Shown here: one piece after another, positions 12,143 through 18,753 of the stretch | Layout of the letters: every line of letters starts with the position of its first letter | How positions within the stretch are numbered: position 1 is the first letter of the stretch | IMG/VR virus record: IMGVR_UViG_3300021403_000051 | Span: 1 to 25,213 of that record | Length of the DNA stretch: 25,213 nt | Strand: one strand, 5' to 3' | Source of the DNA: a virus | Program-made: the position numbers and the translations under genes | Notes under the pieces: model-generated | Seen by the model: the letters and a program-made list of their open reading frames with translations, nothing else | Database searches by the model: none | What the model was told of the DNA's origin: nothing

Positions 12143-12318
12143 CGGGGACGGTGACCACCGCGGCGTCGGTCATCCTGGCCGTCATCGTCGCCCTGGTCAC
12201 CGTCCTGGCCCGCCTCGCCTACCGCCAGGAACGCGACATATCCGCCCTGGCCCAACGTGTCGCGCGCCTTGAGGGCGCCGCCCGCGAACCCCAACGCCAC
12301 CAGGAGGACGACGAATGA
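12139..12318 (+). CDS. small single-pass membrane protein, possible holin or spanin-like
   Basis: 59 residues. One hydrophobic helix at about residues 8-27 (SVILAVIVALVTVLARLAY) is followed by a short amphipathic, charged helix (ERDISALAQRVARLEG) and a polar tail. The start overlaps the previous stop (ATGA). Its position directly in front of the lysin genes suggests a role in lysis (accessory holin), but a tail-associated membrane anchor is also possible. No family recognised. Confidence 0.65.
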   Translation: MTGTVTTAASVILAVIVALVTVLARLAYRQERDISALAQRVARLEGAAREPQRHQEDDE

Positions 12319-12560
12319 CACCCGAACCGGAATCCGACAACGTCACGCGGTCACTCCTGGTGGACGTCGTCGCCCGCCGCCTCGCCGACGCCGTCGCCAC
12401 CTACGCCACGAAATCCCACGACCCCGACCCGCCGCCCGCCTGGGACGAATTGGACCGCCGCGGGCGGAACAGGTACCGCGCCGCCGTTATCGCCGCCGTC
12501 ACCGACCCCGACACCCACCCCGCGTTGGTCGACCTGGTCCGCCTGGTGATGCCGGTATGA
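12315..12560 (+). CDS. small hypothetical protein in lysis cassette
   Basis: 81 residues, ATGA overlaps at both ends and CAGGAGGACGA as SD. It is mostly helical: an N-terminal helix NVTRSLLVDVVARRLADAVA, a Pro/Asp-rich turn (HDPDPPPAWDEL) and a second helix RNRYRAAVIAAVTDP. Actinophages often carry such a protein close to the endolysin, but I know of no function. No cysteines, signal or membrane segment. Confidence 0.6.
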   Translation: MTPEPESDNVTRSLLVDVVARRLADAVATYATKSHDPDPPPAWDELDRRGRNRYRAAVIAAVTDPDTHPALVDLVRLVMPV

Positions 12561-13252
12561 GCGGCGGGTATTCCTACAACGGGTGGCCCGCGTCGGACGA
12601 TTCGTCCGCCATTGGGGTCAACCGCGGGTTTGAGGTCGACGGGGTCACGTTCCCAGGCGGGTGCAAGTCGGGGGACGTTGAAACGGTATTCCGATACCTG
12701 GTCGAACAATTGGACGGGATCGAACCCCTAGTGCCTGGGTGGTGTTGGGGTTATGAGTACCGCGCCAACGTCAACAACCCCTCTAGCCTGTCGTGCCACG
12801 CGTCGGCCACCGCCCTGGACTACAACGCCCCCGACCACCCGAACGGCGGTCCCGCGTACGGCGGGTGGACCGATGACCAGGTCGACCAAATCCGGGACCT
12901 GTTGGACTACCTAGGCGGCGTCGTTGATTGGGGCGCCGATTTCTCCGGAACCAAAGATCCCATGCACTTCGAAATTTCGGGGGACGCCGCCGACGTCGCC
13001 CGCGTGGCCACCATGATCCGCAACCAGGAGGACGACGACATGGCGCTATCACCAGAGGACAAGGATTGGATTTCGGACACCGTCACCAACGCCATCAATA
13101 AGGCGTTGCGGGTCGATACGTACATCGTCACCAACGACCGCGCGTCCACCCCCAACGACGTCCCCTACTCATTCGAAACGGGGATGGAACGCCTTATCCG
13201 GTTGACGTCCGGGACGTTCGTGGGCGAGACAGGGAAACCCCACGACGACTAA
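12557..13252 (+). CDS. endolysin, M15/VanY-like peptidase
   Basis: 231 residues. The zinc peptidase signature is S79-x-H81...A86-x-D88 in SLSCHASATALDYN, and D134-P-M-H137-F-E139 in DPMHFEI. It would cut peptide stems of peptidoglycan; whether D,D- or L-Ala-D-Glu specific cannot be read. The Gly of the SxHxxGxAxD motif is replaced by Ala84. Residues 1-155 are the catalytic domain. The last 70 residues, starting at Met162, form a separate module preceded by its own AGGAGG. The start overlaps the previous stop (ATGA) with a weak SD, so coupling is likely. A second lysin follows the holin. Confidence 0.88.
   Translation: MSGGYSYNGWPASDDSSAIGVNRGFEVDGVTFPGGCKSGDVETVFRYLVEQLDGIEPLVPGWCWGYEYRANVNNPSSLSCHASATALDYNAPDHPNGGPAYGGWTDDQVDQIRDLLDYLGGVVDWGADFSGTKDPMHFEISGDAADVARVATMIRNQEDDDMALSPEDKDWISDTVTNAINKALRVDTYIVTNDRASTPNDVPYSFETGMERLIRLTSGTFVGETGKPHDD
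13040..13252 (+). CDS. internal in-frame start for the C-terminal module of the M15 lysin
   Basis: AGGAGG at 13026-13031 lies 8 bases before ATG 13040, which is codon 162 of the peptidase gene. Translation from here gives a 70-residue module beginning MALSPEDKDWISDTVTNAIN. The full gene's own start has a much weaker SD. Some endolysins (for example enterococcal Lys170) make an extra wall-binding chain this way, which assembles with the full-length enzyme. The coincidence with the domain border supports the same here; see also 14181. Confidence 0.55.
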   Translation: MALSPEDKDWISDTVTNAINKALRVDTYIVTNDRASTPNDVPYSFETGMERLIRLTSGTFVGETGKPHDD

Positions 13253-13324: not shown

Positions 13325-13564
13325 ATGGCCGACCACCACGCCACCACCAGGCGCCCGCCGTGGGTCATCGTCACCGTCGCCGCCCTCGCCGCCATCGTCG
13401 TCGCGTCCCTGGTGGTCGTGATCCTCGCGGGCTACCGCACGGGCGAGATAGTGGCGTTCATCGGGGAAGTCGTCGCCGCCATCGTCGGCGCCGTCGTGGC
13501 CATCCGCGCCGCCGTCCAGGGCATCACGCCCACGCCGCCGACAACGGACGCCACCGATGTCTAG
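13325..13564 (+). CDS. holin (two transmembrane segments)
   Basis: 79 residues with two hydrophobic helices: about residues 13-35 (VIVTVAALAAIVVASLVVVI) and 42-62 (IVAFIGEVVAAIVGAVVAIR), joined by a short Gly-Tyr-Arg turn. The N-terminus is polar with His and Arg; the C-terminus is Pro/Thr-rich. Size, topology and location between two peptidoglycan hydrolases fit a class II holin that permeabilises the membrane. Strong SD AGGAAGGGG before ATG 13325. It overlaps the amidase start (ATGTCTAG). Confidence 0.88.
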   Translation: MADHHATTRRPPWVIVTVAALAAIVVASLVVVILAGYRTGEIVAFIGEVVAAIVGAVVAIRAAVQGITPTPPTTDATDV

Positions 13565-14378
13565 TTGGCAATCCCGATTCGAGGCGGAACTAAGGCGGCG
13601 GTGGCGTGACGTGTCCGCCCCGTCGGGGTGGATCAACCGGAACAACCGAACGGGTTGGATCACGGGCGGACCCATAGGCGCGGTGTTCCACCACACCGCG
13701 TCGTCGTCGGATAACGGGGCGGTCAACACCATCACGAACGGGTGGAGTGGCCACCCCGGACCTGTGTACAACGTCCTGGTCCTGTCCACCGGGGCGGTCC
13801 ACCTGATAGCGGGCGGACCCGCCAACCACGCGGGGCGCGGTAGCGGCGCCGTCCGCGACCGGATCCGGGCGGGCGGTCCACCCGGCGCGACCGGACCCGA
13901 CACGATGAATGGCAACCAATCGTTTTTCGGGGTGTCCGCCCGCCACGTCGGGACGAACCCGAACTACCCCCAGGCGCAACTAGACGCCATCGTTGCGGTG
14001 GGCGCCGCGTTTTGCGTCGCCCGCGGGTTGAACCCCACCACCTGTTTCCACCACCGCGAATGGTCCCTACGCAAAATCGACATGTCATGGCGCGGCGACC
14101 TACGCGGGTTGGTCACCACCGCCGTCCGCGGGTCCACGCCCGCGCCGATCCCACCCACCACACCGCCAGGAGGCGACGACATGAACGATGCCGATTTCGA
14201 ACGGATCCGCGGGATGATCCGATCCGAGATACGCGATTTCTTTTCCGTCCAACGGGTCCGCGTGCAAGGGGACGAGATGAACAACCCCCGTGACTACGAC
14301 GCCACCCGCGACGCGCGGGATATGCGGGCGGTCCGCCTGTCCTCAATCGCCGCCGCCAAAGTGACGGGACGGATCTAG
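13557..14378 (+). CDS. endolysin, N-acetylmuramoyl-L-alanine amidase (amidase_2)
   Basis: 273 residues. Zinc-amidase pattern: FHHT at residues 44-47, NHAGRGSG at 90-97, NQSFFGVSARH at 120-130 and the second ligand region FHHREW...KIDMSW at 164-178. It would cut the bond between muramic acid and the peptide. A Pro-rich linker (PAPIPPTTPPGG) at about 195-206 leads to a C-terminal module starting at Met209, again preceded by an AGGAGG SD. The start overlaps the holin stop by 8 bases. Together with the M15 enzyme it gives two different wall-cutting activities. Confidence 0.92.
   Translation: MSSWQSRFEAELRRRWRDVSAPSGWINRNNRTGWITGGPIGAVFHHTASSSDNGAVNTITNGWSGHPGPVYNVLVLSTGAVHLIAGGPANHAGRGSGAVRDRIRAGGPPGATGPDTMNGNQSFFGVSARHVGTNPNYPQAQLDAIVAVGAAFCVARGLNPTTCFHHREWSLRKIDMSWRGDLRGLVTTAVRGSTPAPIPPTTPPGGDDMNDADFERIRGMIRSEIRDFFSVQRVRVQGDEMNNPRDYDATRDARDMRAVRLSSIAAAKVTGRI
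14181..14378 (+). CDS. internal in-frame start for the C-terminal module of the amidase
   Basis: AGGAGG at 14168-14173 lies 7 bases before ATG 14181, codon 209 of the amidase gene, directly after the Pro-rich linker. The product would be 65 residues, starting MNDADFERIRGMIRSEIRDF with charged helices. The same layout occurs in the M15 lysin: the local sequences CAGGAGGACGACGACATG and CAGGAGGCGACGACATG are almost identical. A separately made C-terminal chain is likely but unproven. Confidence 0.55.
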   Translation: MNDADFERIRGMIRSEIRDFFSVQRVRVQGDEMNNPRDYDATRDARDMRAVRLSSIAAAKVTGRI

Positions 14379-14636: not shown

Positions 14637-14849
14637 TCACCCGTTGGGTGGTGTAACGGGACCACCCACCAGGGCAACCACCAGGTGGGGGATAACGTCG
14701 TGGAGGTCCGGGCGCCCGCCACGCCTGTCCCGTTCGATCCACCCCGCCAACACCCGTTCGGCCATCGCCCGCGTCGGGACGCTAGTAACCGACGCCCGCC
14801 GCCCGGTTCGTGAGTCGACCCAACCCCATTGACCCCGCGTGGCGGTCAA
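14637..14849 (-). CDS. small hypothetical protein, last gene of minus-strand cluster
   Basis: 70 residues starting from TTG 14849, which overlaps the preceding stop (TTGA) and has AGGAAGG 7 bases upstream. A longer reading from ATG 14888 exists but would overlap the previous gene by 43 bases. The protein reads TATRGQWGWVDSRTGRRASV, then AMAERVLAGWIERDRRGGRP and an aliphatic end (DVIPHLVVALVGG). It is basic and helical in the middle. No family recognised. Confidence 0.6.
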   Translation of the reverse strand: MTATRGQWGWVDSRTGRRASVTSVPTRAMAERVLAGWIERDRRGGRPDLHDVIPHLVVALVGGPVTPPNG

Positions 14850-15208
14850 TGCCGCGCCTTCCTGGACGCCCGAACCCGCGCCACCCATTGGTCGTGGCCC
14901 GCCAACGCCGCCACCGCCGATCCGTAGCGCTCCTGATATCCGTCAAGGTCGCCGCCGAACACCATCGTTTCGAATATCAACGGGACCGGTCCCGGACCGA
15001 ACCTGTGATCTAGTCCCAACCACACCGTGGACACCCGGACGTCCCCCACATCGGTCAACCCGACCCGCCGATAAGCGGGGTCGCGTGCTAGTTGCACGTA
15101 CCGCCTGACGCCGATGGGGCGCCCCTCGCGGTCAAACCACACGGGTTCCTCGAACCACCCTGGATCGGGATTGAACGACCCTGGATCGGGTCGCGGATCA
15201 TCCATCAT
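14846..15208 (-). CDS. conserved actinophage hypothetical protein
   Basis: 120 residues; start overlaps the previous stop (ATGA). The N-terminus is Pro/Asp-rich (DDPRPDPGSFNPDPGWF), the middle has VWFDREGRPIGVRRYVQLARDP followed by STVWLGLDHRFGPG, and the end reads IFETMVFGG then YGSAVAALAGHDQWVARVR. The pattern W-L-G-L-D-H, F-E-T-M-V-F and A-L-A-G-H recurs in proteins of many actinobacterial phages and prophages that have no known role. Single polypeptide without membrane segment. Confidence 0.75.
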   Translation of the reverse strand: MMDDPRPDPGSFNPDPGWFEEPVWFDREGRPIGVRRYVQLARDPAYRRVGLTDVGDVRVSTVWLGLDHRFGPGPVPLIFETMVFGGDLDGYQERYGSAVAALAGHDQWVARVRASRKARH

Positions 15209-15402
15209 CCGAACATCACCACCACCGCCCGGACGACCAACACCAGGAGGACGAGCGTTACCACCGTCAGGGCGACGGCGGCGTGTTGGTACGTCCGCCG
15301 CGCCTGTTCGTGACGCGCCGTCGCCAACAACAGGTCGCGGGTAAGGCGGTCGAAATCGTCGCGGCGAACCATCATCCAATCGTCAGGGTCGGGGTCCATC
15401 AC
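15205..15402 (-). CDS. small tail-anchored membrane protein
   Basis: 65 residues; ATGA overlaps with both neighbours. An acidic start (DPDPDDWMMVRRDDFDRL) is followed by a charged helix and one hydrophobic segment at about residues 43-64 (VALTVVTLVLLVLVVRAVVV), leaving the N-terminus probably cytoplasmic. In a cluster placed for expression from the prophage, a small membrane protein may serve superinfection exclusion, but this is only position-based inference. No family recognised. Confidence 0.65.
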   Translation of the reverse strand: MMDPDPDDWMMVRRDDFDRLTRDLLLATARHEQARRTYQHAAVALTVVTLVLLVLVVRAVVVMFG

Positions 15403-15938
15403 GTCACGGTCAACCCCGCGGACCTCGCGGCGGCGTACGCGTCATCCAACGCGGTCCGGTTGTGGTGGCTCGTCAGGTGCATCCGCGTAGCGAATGAGGA
15501 CGTGAAGTCCTCGCGGCACAGGGGGCACCGTAGCGGTGCCTGGGGGATCGGGGACCCCAGGTGCACCCGGTAGACGTGGGCGGTTAGGGACGTCCGGACC
15601 GCCAACGTCTTACCGCACACCCGACAGGCGGCGGGCGCCATCGACGGGGATGGGCCATCGTCTAGATCCTTCCGCGGGCGCCCCATGACCGCCGTGGGGC
15701 GCGTAGCGGCGGGTAGTTCGGGTGTCTGGCCCACCGACCCCAACAGGTCCGCCAGAGGGGCAACCAACGCCTTAACGTGGTCCCCGCATAGATCCAGGAC
15801 CTTAAGGACGGGGCGCGACGATTCGCCCAACGTGGCGCCGACGGTCCACGATTCGACCGCCTCCACCCGCGTCATTTCCCCATCCCCGCCGTCGGCGGCG
15901 CACACGTCGCACCACCGCAAAACGACAACGTCCCTCAT
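15399..15938 (-). CDS. C2H2 zinc-finger protein with AT-hook-like motif
   Basis: 179 residues. Two classical C2H2 fingers are visible: C105-x2-C108-x12-H121-x4-H126 and C138-x2-C141-x12-H154-x3-H158. An N-terminal zinc site may be formed by C10-x2-C13 and C51-x2-H54. Between them lies MGRPRK at 85-90, which resembles an AT-hook core (GRP). The protein is therefore probably a DNA-binding regulator. Classical tandem C2H2 fingers are rare in bacteria; single Ros-type fingers are the known exception and have different spacing. It lies third in the minus cluster, ATGA-coupled to its neighbours. Target unknown. Confidence 0.78.
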   Translation of the reverse strand: MRDVVVLRWCDVCAADGGDGEMTRVEAVESWTVGATLGESSRPVLKVLDLCGDHVKALVAPLADLLGSVGQTPELPAATRPTAVMGRPRKDLDDGPSPSMAPAACRVCGKTLAVRTSLTAHVYRVHLGSPIPQAPLRCPLCREDFTSSFATRMHLTSHHNRTALDDAYAAARSAGLTVT

Positions 15939-16321
15939 GCCGATTTCACCGCCCTAACCCGCGCGGTCGACAGGTGAACCATCGACGCCAGGCGGACCGC
16001 GTCACGGTCCGACGACGACAGGTGACCCAACCCGTGGATTTGGTACCCATCGGCGTATTCATAGTGTGACGACACCATGGCGCCCGATTCGGAAATCAGA
16101 CGCTCGCGGATGGTGTGACACCGCGTGCAACGTAGTTCCGATGAATACACCCTGTCCTTGTCCAACCATCGGGTCCGCCAGGGGCGCCACGAATGGCCGA
16201 AATCCCGGCATTGAACGAACGACGGTGGCATGTCCTCGACCGCGTCCGATATCGAAACCTTGCGAGGGGTCACGGGCGGGGGTTCCGGATCGGGTGTACC
16301 GACCCGACGGTTACGGGGCAT
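15935..16321 (-). CDS. conserved actinophage protein with Cys/His zinc-knuckle pattern
   Basis: 128 residues; AGGAAGG 10 bases before ATG 16321. Cysteines and histidine at C38, H43, C65 and C68 (VQCRDFGHSWRPW, then LRCTRCHTIRERL) suggest a zinc site. It goes on with SHYEYADGYQIHGLGHLSSSDRDAVRLAS. This arrangement is frequent in actinophage early or lysogeny-adjacent regions, but no function is known. It is the upstream partner of the zinc-finger gene (ATGA overlap), so both are made from one transcript. Confidence 0.75.
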   Translation of the reverse strand: MPRNRRVGTPDPEPPPVTPRKVSISDAVEDMPPSFVQCRDFGHSWRPWRTRWLDKDRVYSSELRCTRCHTIRERLISESGAMVSSHYEYADGYQIHGLGHLSSSDRDAVRLASMVHLSTARVRAVKSA

Positions 16322-16384
16322 AACGGGTGACGCCTTCCTGTTAGGGGGTCCGCCTTGCGGATGGCGCGCAATCTACCGGTTGAA

Positions 16385-16633
16385 TCATGGTGGATCCAGC
16401 AACGTCGGATTGGATCCGTTGGTGTCGTCGGGATCCAGGTAGCCCATGACGTAGTCCCATGGTTCCGCGACTAGGACGGTGGCCCCGCCAACCAACGTGA
16501 TGATGGTGGCGCGAACCCCCGCCGCCTCTAGTTCGCGCGCGGCGATGATCCAGGACGCGCGGAACGCCTGGACGCCTAGCGGGACCCCGGTGGGTCCGTC
16601 CCCGATCCTGGTGAGTAGTAGCCAATCGCTCAT
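16385..16633 (-). CDS. small hypothetical protein
   Basis: 82 residues; start ATG 16633 overlaps the previous stop and has GGAGGG about 10 bases upstream. The sequence DWLLLTRIGDGPTGVPLGVQ, then RELEAAGVRATIITLVGGAT, then AEPWDYVMGYLDPDD predicts an alpha-beta fold with one long amphipathic helix. No family recognised. A 63-base gap follows before the next gene, with a small stem (TCCGC/GCGGA). Confidence 0.65.
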   Translation of the reverse strand: MSDWLLLTRIGDGPTGVPLGVQAFRASWIIAARELEAAGVRATIITLVGGATVLVAEPWDYVMGYLDPDDTNGSNPTLLDPP

Positions 16634-16800
16634 GGGTCGCGCGCCCTCCCTGGTGGGCGCCGTGCGATATGCGCCCATCGCAGCCGATCCAACGCCGCCC
16701 AACAGGACCGCGCCATATGAGGGCGGAAGATCACCCGGACGGTCCCGATAGGGACGGATCGGGCGGGGTATGTGGCCCCCTCGCGCCCCGTTCGGTCCAT
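16630..16800 (-). CDS. small basic hypothetical protein, first gene of minus-strand cluster
   Basis: 56 residues from ATG 16800 (AGGCGG about 11 bases upstream); a TTG at 16827 would add nine residues but lies inside a hairpin. It is strongly basic (RVIFRPHMARSCWAALDRLR, then ARRPPGRARDP) and ends ATGA-coupled to the next gene. The coupling and SD are the main reasons to accept it. No family recognised. Confidence 0.45.
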   Translation of the reverse strand: MDRTGREGATYPARSVPIGTVRVIFRPHMARSCWAALDRLRWAHIARRPPGRARDP

Positions 16801-16824: not shown

Positions 16825-16867
16825 CAACGGCGGACGCCAGGCGCGTCACGCCTACCGTCCGCCGTTG
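16825..16867. terminator. 12-bp perfect hairpin between attP and the minus-strand cluster
   Basis: CAACGGCGGACG (16825-16836) pairs perfectly with CGTCCGCCGTTG (16856-16867). Inside the loop AGGCG and CGCCT can pair again, so the whole 43 bases can fold as one long rod. No T-run flanks it. It separates the integrase side from the cluster at 14637-16800 and may stop transcripts arriving from the integrase or, in a lysogen, from host DNA; a binding site for a recombination protein is the alternative. Confidence 0.6.
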
Positions 16868-16876
16868 ATCATCAAT

Positions 16877-17123
16877 CGTGGGCACTATTTGGGCACATCG
16901 GGGTCCGATGACCGCCTATTGGGCACTACCGGAATCGAACAGGTCCCACATGTCAGGGGGCAGAATTCGAACGGACCTGGCCCTATGAAATTCGTTCACA
17001 CCGAAGAGGACGCCGGTTCGATCCCGGCATCGCCCACCGACATAACACCAGGTCAGACCCCCTAGACATGATCAAGCATGATCACGCTAGATCCGCCGTG
17101 GGCACTATTTGGGCACATCGGGG
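16877..17123. other. attP: attP region with tRNA-Val 3' core and integrase arm repeats
   Basis: The core at about 16989-17038 matches the 3' part of a bacterial tRNA-Val: anticodon arm TTCG-TTCACAC-CGAA with anticodon CAC, variable region, T-arm GCCGG-TTCGATC-CCGGC (17012-17028) and acceptor strand ATCGCCC-A. Integration would rebuild the host gene. A 27-base direct repeat starting CGTGGGCACTATTTGGGC flanks the core at 16877-16903 and 17097-17123, with a further GGGCACTA at 16921; these look like arm-type integrase sites. An inverted pair (CATGTCAGGGGG near 16949, CCCCCTAGACATG near 17058) also brackets the core. The right arm repeat overlaps the integrase 3' end. Confidence 0.85.
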
Positions 17124-18268
17124 GCACCGACCACCCGATTCCGGGGCATCCTGGCGGGCGGTTTCGGGGCACTCGCCGCCGCCGTCGCCGCCGCCGACAT
17201 GCGCGCCGCGACGTCGTCCAAATCGGTGCCCAACAGGTCCGCGTACGTGTCCAATGTGGTGGTCGCGCGGTCGTGGCCCAACATCCGTTGGAGGACCTTC
17301 ACGTTGGCACCCGCCGACACCGCCAGGGACGCCGCGGAATGCCGCAAGTCGTGGGGCGTGACGTAGGGGAACGACGGATCCGCGCGCCGTAGGTGTAGCA
17401 ACGCGCGACGCCAGGCGCGCGCCCGGAAGCGTTGCACCGACAGGGGCGCGCCCATCGGTCCCGCGAACAACCAGGCGTCCGGAAGTCTGCCCTTTGTTTG
17501 CTCGACTAGCGCGGGGACCAGGAAGTCAGGGACGGGCACCGAACGTTCGCCGCCCGTCTTAGTTGTCCCGACGAACCGACGCCCCTTGACTTCCGTCGCG
17601 CCGTCGCGGACCCGCAAACGGCGGCGCGCGGCGTCGAAATCGCCCGCCCGTAGCGCGGACAATTCCCCGAACCGTAGCCCTGTGTAGGCGAGGACCCGAA
17701 CCACCAATCCGTAGGGCGCGAACGACGCGCCACATTCGTCCGCCAGGCGGGCGACCTGGCCGTGATCCAGGTAGTTCCGCCGTTTCCGTTGACGGGTCGG
17801 GCGGGTTACTTCCGGGACCGGATTGGCCGGAATAAGGCGGTCCTCGACGGCCAGCGCCATCACGCCCGACAGGACGTCCAGGGCGGATCCAATCGTCGCC
17901 GCGGACCGCCCGTCCAATTCCATCGCCCGTACCCATTCCTTAACGTCGGACACCCGGACGTTGCGAACCGGGACCGATCCCCATTGACGTTCGACGCGGA
18001 CCCGCCAGGCGGATTCGTAGCGGGCGATGGTGGCGGGTTTGGCGGGGTGGATGGCAAAGAACCGGGGGGCAATCTCGCCCACCGTTCGCCGCCCAACGTT
18101 GGGGTCGGTGTAGGTCCCGCCCGCCATCGCGGTTAGGGTGTCCCGTTCCCATTTTTGGGCGTCCTTTTTGGTGGCGAACCCGCGGACCTTTTTGGGTTGG
18201 TGTAGGAGGTCGCGGTAACGAACCATCCATTGGTCGCCTGTTTTGGTTGCGTAGCGTTCCACGCTCAT
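17105..18268 (-). CDS. int: tyrosine integrase
   Basis: 387 residues. Catalytic residues of the tyrosine recombinases are all present: R199 (TGLRFGE), K237 (TTKTGGE), H306 and R309 (TPHDLRH), H332 (LGHD) and Y342 (LDTYADL). Residues 1-60 form the arm-binding domain (VRYRD, then GFATKKDAQKWER) and about 63-150 the core-binding domain. The ATG at 18268 has AGGAAGGGG 9 bases upstream and overlaps the repressor stop (ATGA), so integrase is cotranscribed with the repressor. The 3' end runs into the right arm repeat of attP, a compact arrangement. It should integrate the genome into tRNA-Val. Confidence 0.95.
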   Translation of the reverse strand: MSVERYATKTGDQWMVRYRDLLHQPKKVRGFATKKDAQKWERDTLTAMAGGTYTDPNVGRRTVGEIAPRFFAIHPAKPATIARYESAWRVRVERQWGSVPVRNVRVSDVKEWVRAMELDGRSAATIGSALDVLSGVMALAVEDRLIPANPVPEVTRPTRQRKRRNYLDHGQVARLADECGASFAPYGLVVRVLAYTGLRFGELSALRAGDFDAARRRLRVRDGATEVKGRRFVGTTKTGGERSVPVPDFLVPALVEQTKGRLPDAWLFAGPMGAPLSVQRFRARAWRRALLHLRRADPSFPYVTPHDLRHSAASLAVSAGANVKVLQRMLGHDRATTTLDTYADLLGTDLDDVAARMSAAATAAASAPKPPARMPRNRVVGAPDVPK

Positions 18269-18753
18269 CGGTTGGTCCCCTTCCTGGGGGTTGTGGTGGG
18301 TAGTTGCGCCTGGACCGCGCGGACCTCTTCCGCGTGGCGTTGCAACAGGTGGGTCATGTGGGCGATGGGGTCCACGGGCACGACGGATTCCGCCATCGCG
18401 CCCGTGGGTCCCGCGCCCACCTGGTGTAGCCACCGCCAATAGGTTTCGGCGGGTATCGGGTCGGCGGACGCCGACGTGTGGACGGGTTGCAGGGGGTCGA
18501 CCGCGGGTGGCATCAACAGGTCCGTCACGGCCACCCCCAACCCCGCGGCGATGGCCACCAAATCGTGGACGGACACCCGACGGTCCCCGCCTTCCGTTTT
18601 GGTGATCATGGTTCGTTGGTAGCGGTGGCCCGTGGTCTGGTGGATCGCCTCCACCAACGCGGGGACGGTCAACCCCCGTAGATCCCGGTAGTACCGGATT
18701 CGGTCGGCCACCGTCTGGTCGGTCGGTCCTGGTCTGATTGGTTCGCGTGACAT
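18265..18753 (-). CDS. immunity repressor, XRE-type helix-turn-helix
   Basis: 162 residues. An N-terminal Cro/C1-type HTH covers about residues 14-82 (TVADRIRYYRDLRGLTVPAL, then MITKTEGGDRRVSVHDLVAI). The rest has a short helical part and a coiled end (HMTHLLQRHAEEVRAVQAQL) that may dimerise. No peptidase motif is seen, so it is not a LexA-like self-cleaving type. No SD precedes ATG 18753; the hexamer TAGTCT ends six bases before the ATG on this strand, so a leaderless transcript is plausible. The gene diverges from the xis-like gene with operator candidates between. Confidence 0.82.
   Translation of the reverse strand: MSREPIRPGPTDQTVADRIRYYRDLRGLTVPALVEAIHQTTGHRYQRTMITKTEGGDRRVSVHDLVAIAAGLGVAVTDLLMPPAVDPLQPVHTSASADPIPAETYWRWLHQVGAGPTGAMAESVVPVDPIAHMTHLLQRHAEEVRAVQAQLPTTTPRKGTNR

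Follow-up and report, generated by a model that had tools for sequence, protein, structure and literature searches.

Tandem C2H2 zinc fingers linked to an Lsr2-like N-terminal domain in a divergent family of viral proteins: a candidate silencer-type DNA-binding protein

The window, that is, the whole stretch of 25,213 nucleotides analysed here (virus record IMGVR_UViG_3300021403_000051), represents a tailed-phage record with genes for terminase, portal, protease, capsid, and tape measure. Endolysin-type genes are followed by a leftward group (14846-16702), the integrase gene, a gene encoding a helix-turn-helix (HTH) protein, and rightward genes for an exonuclease and RecT (Table 1). The two endolysin-type genes (12257-13252 and 13557-14378) belong to different PHROG families, phrog_1512 and phrog_880, within one lysis region. 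The zinc-finger gene of the leftward group is present exactly as given in the first-pass annotation. Its codon-position GC content (0.66/0.56/0.84) is similar to that of other genes in the window, and the family profile matches it at an E-value of 1.5e-52, the window protein itself being a row of this profile. A sigma-70-like promoter site for the gene was not found. An inverted repeat with 19-nt arms (89%) at 16825-16867 lies in the stretch that separates the leftward group from the att region and might serve as operator or terminator.

Table 1. Genes, protein segments, and sites around the zinc-finger gene of the window
Feature	Position	Strand	Remarks
Downstream ORF, 65 aa	15205..15402	-	By eye, C-terminus hydrophobic; its start and the stop of the zinc-finger gene overlap; no family match (Pfam, PHROG)
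Zinc-finger gene	15399..15938	-	ATG start, 179 aa
C2H2 finger 2, residues 138-158/159	15462..15527	-	C-x2-C-x12-H-x3-H-H
C2H2 finger 1, residues 105-126	15561..15626	-	C-x2-C-x12-H-x4-H
AT-hook-like GRPRK, residues 86-90	15669..15683	-	In low-confidence linker
N-terminal domain, residues 1-70	15729..15938	-	Lsr2-dimerization-like, treble-clef-like
phrog_4480 zinc-ribbon-like partner gene	15935..16321	-	phrog_4480, E 2.1e-20; its stop overlaps the start of the zinc-finger gene by 4 nt
Upstream ORF of leftward group	16385..16702	-	No convincing family (Pfam, PHROG)
Probable attP	16877..17123	.	Two exact 27-nt direct repeats (16877-16903, 17097-17123) flank a core resembling a tRNA 3' half and ending at about 17038
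Tyrosine integrase	17105..18268	-	PF00589, 3.1e-23; phrog_1, 4.4e-69
HTH protein, candidate repressor	18265..18753	-	HTH_31, 1.4e-5, below cut-off; phrog_11503, 9.8e-10

The protein contains seven Cys and six His residues, and three sites take up all seven Cys and five of the six His: C10, C13, C51, and H54 (C10-x2-C13...C51-x2-H54) at the N-terminus, C105, C108, H121, and H126 in finger 1, and C138, C141, and H154 together with H158 or H159 in finger 2. Thus, both the two fingers with the C-x2-C-x12-H-x3/4-H spacing and the GRPRK motif, as described in the first-pass annotation, are found in the sequence, and the classical pattern C-x2-4-C-x12-H-x3-5-H occurs twice. When the same residues were shuffled 200,000 times, a looser C2H2 motif matched at least once in 341 shuffles and at least twice in only 12, indicating that the tandem pair is not a product of chance. 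Both Pfam finger models remain sub-threshold for the window protein (zf-C2H2_4, 26.2 versus a cut-off of 27 bits, E 1.1e-5; zf-C2H2, 23.1 versus 25.2 bits), whereas the relative L016 passes zf-C2H2 with 27 versus 25.2 bits, and the family profile matches solved C2H2 proteins with a best E-value of 1.1e-23. Structure prediction, the check proposed at the outset, likewise yielded well-modelled fingers, with AlphaFold2 pLDDT block means of 93-97, as compared to 40-73 over the N-terminal 70 residues and values below 50 for residues 76-97, including GRPRK. The two fingers are separated by an 11-residue linker, which we take not to be of the TGEKP type. The motif GRP[PR] is shared by two relatives, L115 and L139, as GRPP or GRPR. 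Judged from its sequence, the protein is probably a DNA-binding zinc-finger protein.

Using the window protein as query, no relative was obtained in viral_contigs, genome_contigs, or phages (the latter at E<=1). Weak matches of the protein halves to phages and of the whole protein to plasmids (E<=10) were taken as noise, and an exact two-finger DNA pattern returned four contigs whose ORFs are nearly identical to each other but do not resemble the query; two have a stop inside the motif, and we regard them all as probable shadow ORFs of another gene. A looser tandem-finger pattern yielded 85 stretches, from which 80 loci (L011-L090) were parsed; 32 contained an in-frame tandem motif, several being low-complexity or shadow ORFs by eye, and two, L062 and L016, showed the whole layout. 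The pattern WCDVC...LCxxH gave 15 stretches, of which eight (L114, L115, L120, L122, L124-L126, and L062) were in frame with the same layout; an in-frame match was absent from L116-L119 and L121, and L123 and L127 appear unrelated. An alignment search returned eight loci, among them L139 as a new one. Taken together, the same build, consisting of N-terminal CDVC...LCxxH, a basic linker, and one or two C2H2 fingers, is present in ten further viral records (L016, L062, L114, L115, L120, L122, L124, L125, L126, and L139), two of which, G003 and G005, are near-duplicates. Such proteins are rare in phages, as had been claimed, but the window protein is not unique.

The family is divergent. The tail of L115 is like that of the window protein; finger 1 has an x11 instead of an x12 spacing in L115, L125, and L139, L124 contains a single finger, the first finger of L126 is irregular, and the second finger is longer in L114 and L120. 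Moreover, L114 carries an added C-terminal HTH_17 domain (28.5 bits, cut-off 27) with a match to phrog_66, excisionase/MerR-like, as would be expected of a protein that binds DNA. This HTH_17/excisionase-like domain follows the fingers in L114:1384-2070 and, by eye, in L120:1455-2147. Searching the phages with the relatives by tblastn did not reveal a cultured-phage member with the full layout: Tunturi_5 has fingers and lacks such an N-domain, Ponzi gp67 has the N-domain only, and Burro gp23 the fingers only. Ponzi gp67 (L145:901-1092, Streptomyces phage) is a stand-alone protein of 63 amino acids with an intact CxxC...CxxH N-domain. In addition, L040:670-1506, L060, L082, L101 (Tunturi_5), and L146 (Burro gp23) are viral proteins that combine at least two C2H2-like fingers with other partners, and the C-terminal ends of L040 and Tunturi_5 are alike by eye.

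The extra N-terminal Cys/His site of the first-pass annotation is likewise present. In an alignment of 13 N-domains, ten from the zinc-finger family and three from Streptomyces phages, the positions of C10, C51, and H54 are invariant, and the position of C13 is occupied by C in ten rows, H in one, and D in two. This ligand set is what a zinc-bearing treble clef would need. Comparison of the N-domain profile with six phage Lsr2 N-domains by hhalign yielded an E-value of 4.3e-5 and a score of 27.8. The cleaned real pair scored 29.3 as compared to a maximum of 17.0 in 300 column shuffles, omission of the first four columns left 16.2 versus a maximum of 13.9 in 200 shuffles, and an unrelated profile scored 10.2. 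PF11774, the Lsr2 dimerization domain, matches two of the 13 N-domains at E<=10 (best 0.0032) and, among the 11 family records, only the zinc-finger gene of G009, below cut-off; the window protein itself has no Lsr2 Pfam match. The full-length L126 protein matches phrog_1223 ('Lsr2-like') at 0.0074 and the N-domain of L062 matches phrog_4061 at 7.5e-8. The N-domain profile gave nothing useful against the sequences of solved structures, the best E-value being 0.04 for a designed protein.

Structural comparison pointed in the same direction. For an N-domain model built without any Lsr2 row (pLDDT 74.7), the dimerization domain of M. tuberculosis Lsr2 (4e1p) was the first PDB match by Foldseek (prob 0.95, with an E-value of 0.13 that is weak even though the best) and the first match by VIA (Z 5.9, 3.2 A, 54 residues; next Z 3.9). 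With the model of the window protein, 4e1p again ranked first by VIA (Z 4.7, 2.7 A, 52 residues; next 3.7), while Foldseek ranked a Cas9 chain first and 2wbt, a C2H2 protein of an archaeal virus, second (prob 0.98), both ahead of it. The Z values of 4.7 and 5.9 are modest, and a Z below 8 may reflect merely a common arrangement. Lsr2 4E1P itself is classed, in the survey by Kaur and Subramanian (PMC4999995), as a treble clef whose structure is without a zinc ion. Based on models and sequence profiles, the N-domain hence resembles the Lsr2 dimerization domain and appears treble-clef-like rather than a third finger; the two domains may share common descent.

We consider it improbable that the fingers bind protein or RNA and that the N-domain has no relation to Lsr2, being a treble clef of the generic kind. 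Such folds are common and have more than one origin (PMC4999995), and the second VIA match of the N-domain model, at Z 3.9, is an HNH nuclease with zinc. However, Lsr2 ranks first under VIA for two models and is also found by sequence profiles, and the column-shuffle control of the hhalign score argues against this explanation. The resemblance could also point to a counter-silencer, whose N-domain would form heterodimers with the Lsr2 of the host, poison its filaments, and thereby free phage genes. The N-domain does resemble the domain by which Lsr2 dimerizes, and a separate Lsr2 gene was not found in the 11 family records, which are fragments. On the other hand, an antagonist would need neither conserved fingers nor a basic linker, and the ligand positions of the N-domain are absent from the Lsr2 rows, so that we give this possibility little weight.

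The gene pair formed with phrog_4480 is conserved: phrog_4480 lies directly upstream on the same strand in 10 of the 11 family records, namely in the window, in G038 (L139), and in eight of the nine others, being absent only from G004; because G003 and G005 are near-duplicates, the count becomes 9 of 10 when these are merged. The distance from the phrog_4480 stop to the next start ranges from -8 to +3 nt in nine of ten cases and is 275 nt in L128. Both genes are probably on one message. In L128, a second small protein with CDVC...DLCxxC (711-1028) is encoded just upstream of the pair; it has no Pfam or PHROG match at E<=0.01. In a hand-picked control set of 28 other viral records, which was not host-matched, phrog_4480 did not occur. 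Among cultured phages, 84 records contain a match, and in 6 of the 13 loci viewed (Reindeer, Nedarya, Anon, EagleEye, Luchador, and Bongo) phrog_4480 adjoins an Lsr2-like gene, whereas it does not in Finch, ReqiDocB7, P3.1, E3, Erutan, GMA6, and MacGully. The gene order differs, with Lsr2 first and then phrog_4480 in cultured phages, and phrog_4480 first in the family of the window. In the cluster M mycobacteriophages Bongo (NC_041970, 1224-1475) and Reindeer (NC_053516, 1246-1512), the phrog_4480 match beside Lsr2 lacks an annotated gene.

All 84 records with a match to the partner gene belong to phages of Mycobacterium, Gordonia, Rhodococcus, or Nocardia, and the terminase matched 614 records, most of them from actinophages, with less than 30% identity in the 20 listed. 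Based on these matches and on the GC content of the window of 0.67, the host is probably an actinobacterium.

The zinc-finger gene had been placed between lysis genes and attP. The endolysin and integrase genes are supported by family matches, and attP is likely. The att core is only inferred: presumably it corresponds to the 3' half of a tRNA-Val; the Rfam tRNA match at 16957-17036 is sub-threshold (17.9 versus 29 bits, E 0.33), a full tRNA was not detected in the window, and genome_contigs gave no exact match to the 44-nt core. If the attP assignment holds, integration would leave the zinc-finger group and the integrase at opposite ends of the prophage. Such a position, also claimed before, is likely in the window but may not apply to every record of the family: besides the window, five of the nine other family records contain an integrase (both integrase families tested), all of these records being possibly fragments. 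If expressed in the lysogen, the protein might also alter host genes or exclude other phages, as the first-pass annotation proposed. In five relatives of the integrase, the zinc-finger gene is absent from the stretches examined.

The location in the integrase/repressor arm would also suit an ordinary sequence-specific transcription factor, with fingers that bind one or a few operators, for instance of phage early or lysis genes, and an N-domain that merely dimerizes, without bridging or global silencing. Two fingers can confer sequence specificity, and the excisionase/MerR-like HTH added in L114 fits as well. Nevertheless, family members differ in how many fingers they have and how these are spaced (finger 1 with x11 or x12; one finger in L124), and the Lsr2-like N-domain better fits a nucleoid-type protein. 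We therefore regard a conventional transcription factor as rather unlikely, albeit deserving consideration.

Compared with the Lsr2/CgpS-type bridging proteins of phages, the family shares the N-terminal fold, as suggested by the models, the DL[C/T/S]xx[H/N] region, the two-part layout with a DNA-binding C-terminus, and, in some phages, the phrog_4480 neighbour. In contrast, its N-domain zinc-ligand positions are filled, while those of the Lsr2 rows are not, and C2H2 fingers take the place of the Lsr2 C-terminal DNA-binding domain with its RGR hook (PF23359), which was not matched at E<=1 in the window protein but was in Reindeer gp3 as positive control. Since this domain is absent, the protein is not a member of Lsr2. 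Likewise, it is not a member of the Ros/MucR silencers of alpha-proteobacteria because spacing and profile fail: their finger has the spacing C-x2-C-x9-H-x3-H, as opposed to x12 in the window and x11 in some relatives, PF05443 gave no match at E<=1 in the window protein, and the N-domain and the number of fingers, two, differ. Shared features would be the combination of oligomerization with C2H2 fingers and the silencer function, which are described in PMC8857273 and PMC9779718 for MucR, whereas for the present family oligomers and silencing are suppositions.

Among proteins of Streptomyces phages, Loofah gp29, Haizum gp28, and their counterpart in Endor2 contain a CD[VI][CD]...DLCxxH domain and a basic tail; this likeness rests on weak tblastn matches (E 0.4-0.9) and on the alignment. 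In the three phages, the gene with this motif lies, on the opposite strand, between the lysis and repressor genes, a location comparable to that of the zinc-finger gene in the window, but the tail is rich in lysine and alanine and devoid of fingers. Loofah gp29 and Haizum gp28 are annotated as 'Lsr2-like' or 'DNA binding', one record saying Lsr2-like. Archaeal-virus C2H2 proteins (AFV1p06; 2wbt) also provide classical fingers in a virus of prokaryotes; an Lsr2-like N-domain is not described for them in the available part of PMC3541406. Although a member of neither group, the zinc-finger protein probably functions like Lsr2 and Ros/MucR, the likeness to MucR probably being due to convergence.

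We lean slightly towards a DNA-binding protein of the nucleoid-associated or silencer type, encoded by the phage, with a mode of action like that of Lsr2 but a different build. Resembling the dimerization fold of Lsr2 while bearing zinc, the N-domain would pair or chain the protein, the basic GRPRK linker would contact the minor groove of AT-rich DNA, and the pair of C2H2 fingers would read the major groove, linker and fingers together standing in for the C-terminal RGR domain of Lsr2. Subunits linked in this manner might bridge DNA segments or coat them and so keep promoters silent, the likeliest targets being promoters of the prophage itself or of DNA that lies nearby or enters the cell. As suggested by the gene order, the phrog_4480 protein may be a partner or modulator. 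Several observations weigh against this reading: the window protein has no Lsr2 Pfam match, the Foldseek E-values and the Z values are low in significance, the hhalign score drops on omission of the first four columns, phrog_4480 has no Lsr2 neighbour in seven of the 13 loci, the finger linker differs from the TGEKP type, and a promoter was not found. There is precedent for the single elements: MucR, an oligomerizing zinc-finger protein, is a silencer that binds to AT-rich DNA (PMC8857273, PMC9779718), the Lsr2-like prophage protein CgpS holds its own prophage in the lysogenic state (PMC7650747), and in cluster J mycobacteriophages the Lsr2 DNA-binding domain is fused to Ku (PMC8612146), indicating that parts of Lsr2 are exchanged in these phages. 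A literature search limited to titles and abstract openings, with preprints and closed papers outside its scope, did not bring up an Lsr2-like domain combined with C2H2 fingers.

More tentatively, and with considerable doubt, phages may have kept a zinc-bearing Lsr2 dimerization domain, possibly the ancestral state of the zinc-less Lsr2, and combined it with C2H2 fingers to give silencers that can be aimed at sequences, the phrog_4480 partner also serving true Lsr2. If right, this would join Lsr2-type silencing, the proposal of a zinc-less treble-clef Lsr2, as put forward in PMC4999995, and the C2H2 fingers of bacterial viruses, and would provide small proteins with which the zinc-to-no-zinc history of Lsr2 could be tested, as well as, for phages of high-GC bacteria, a candidate silencer that is aimed by sequence. 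Should the reading as a silencer with a zinc-bearing Lsr2 domain prove true, the family would represent a second, convergent class of zinc-finger silencers beside MucR.
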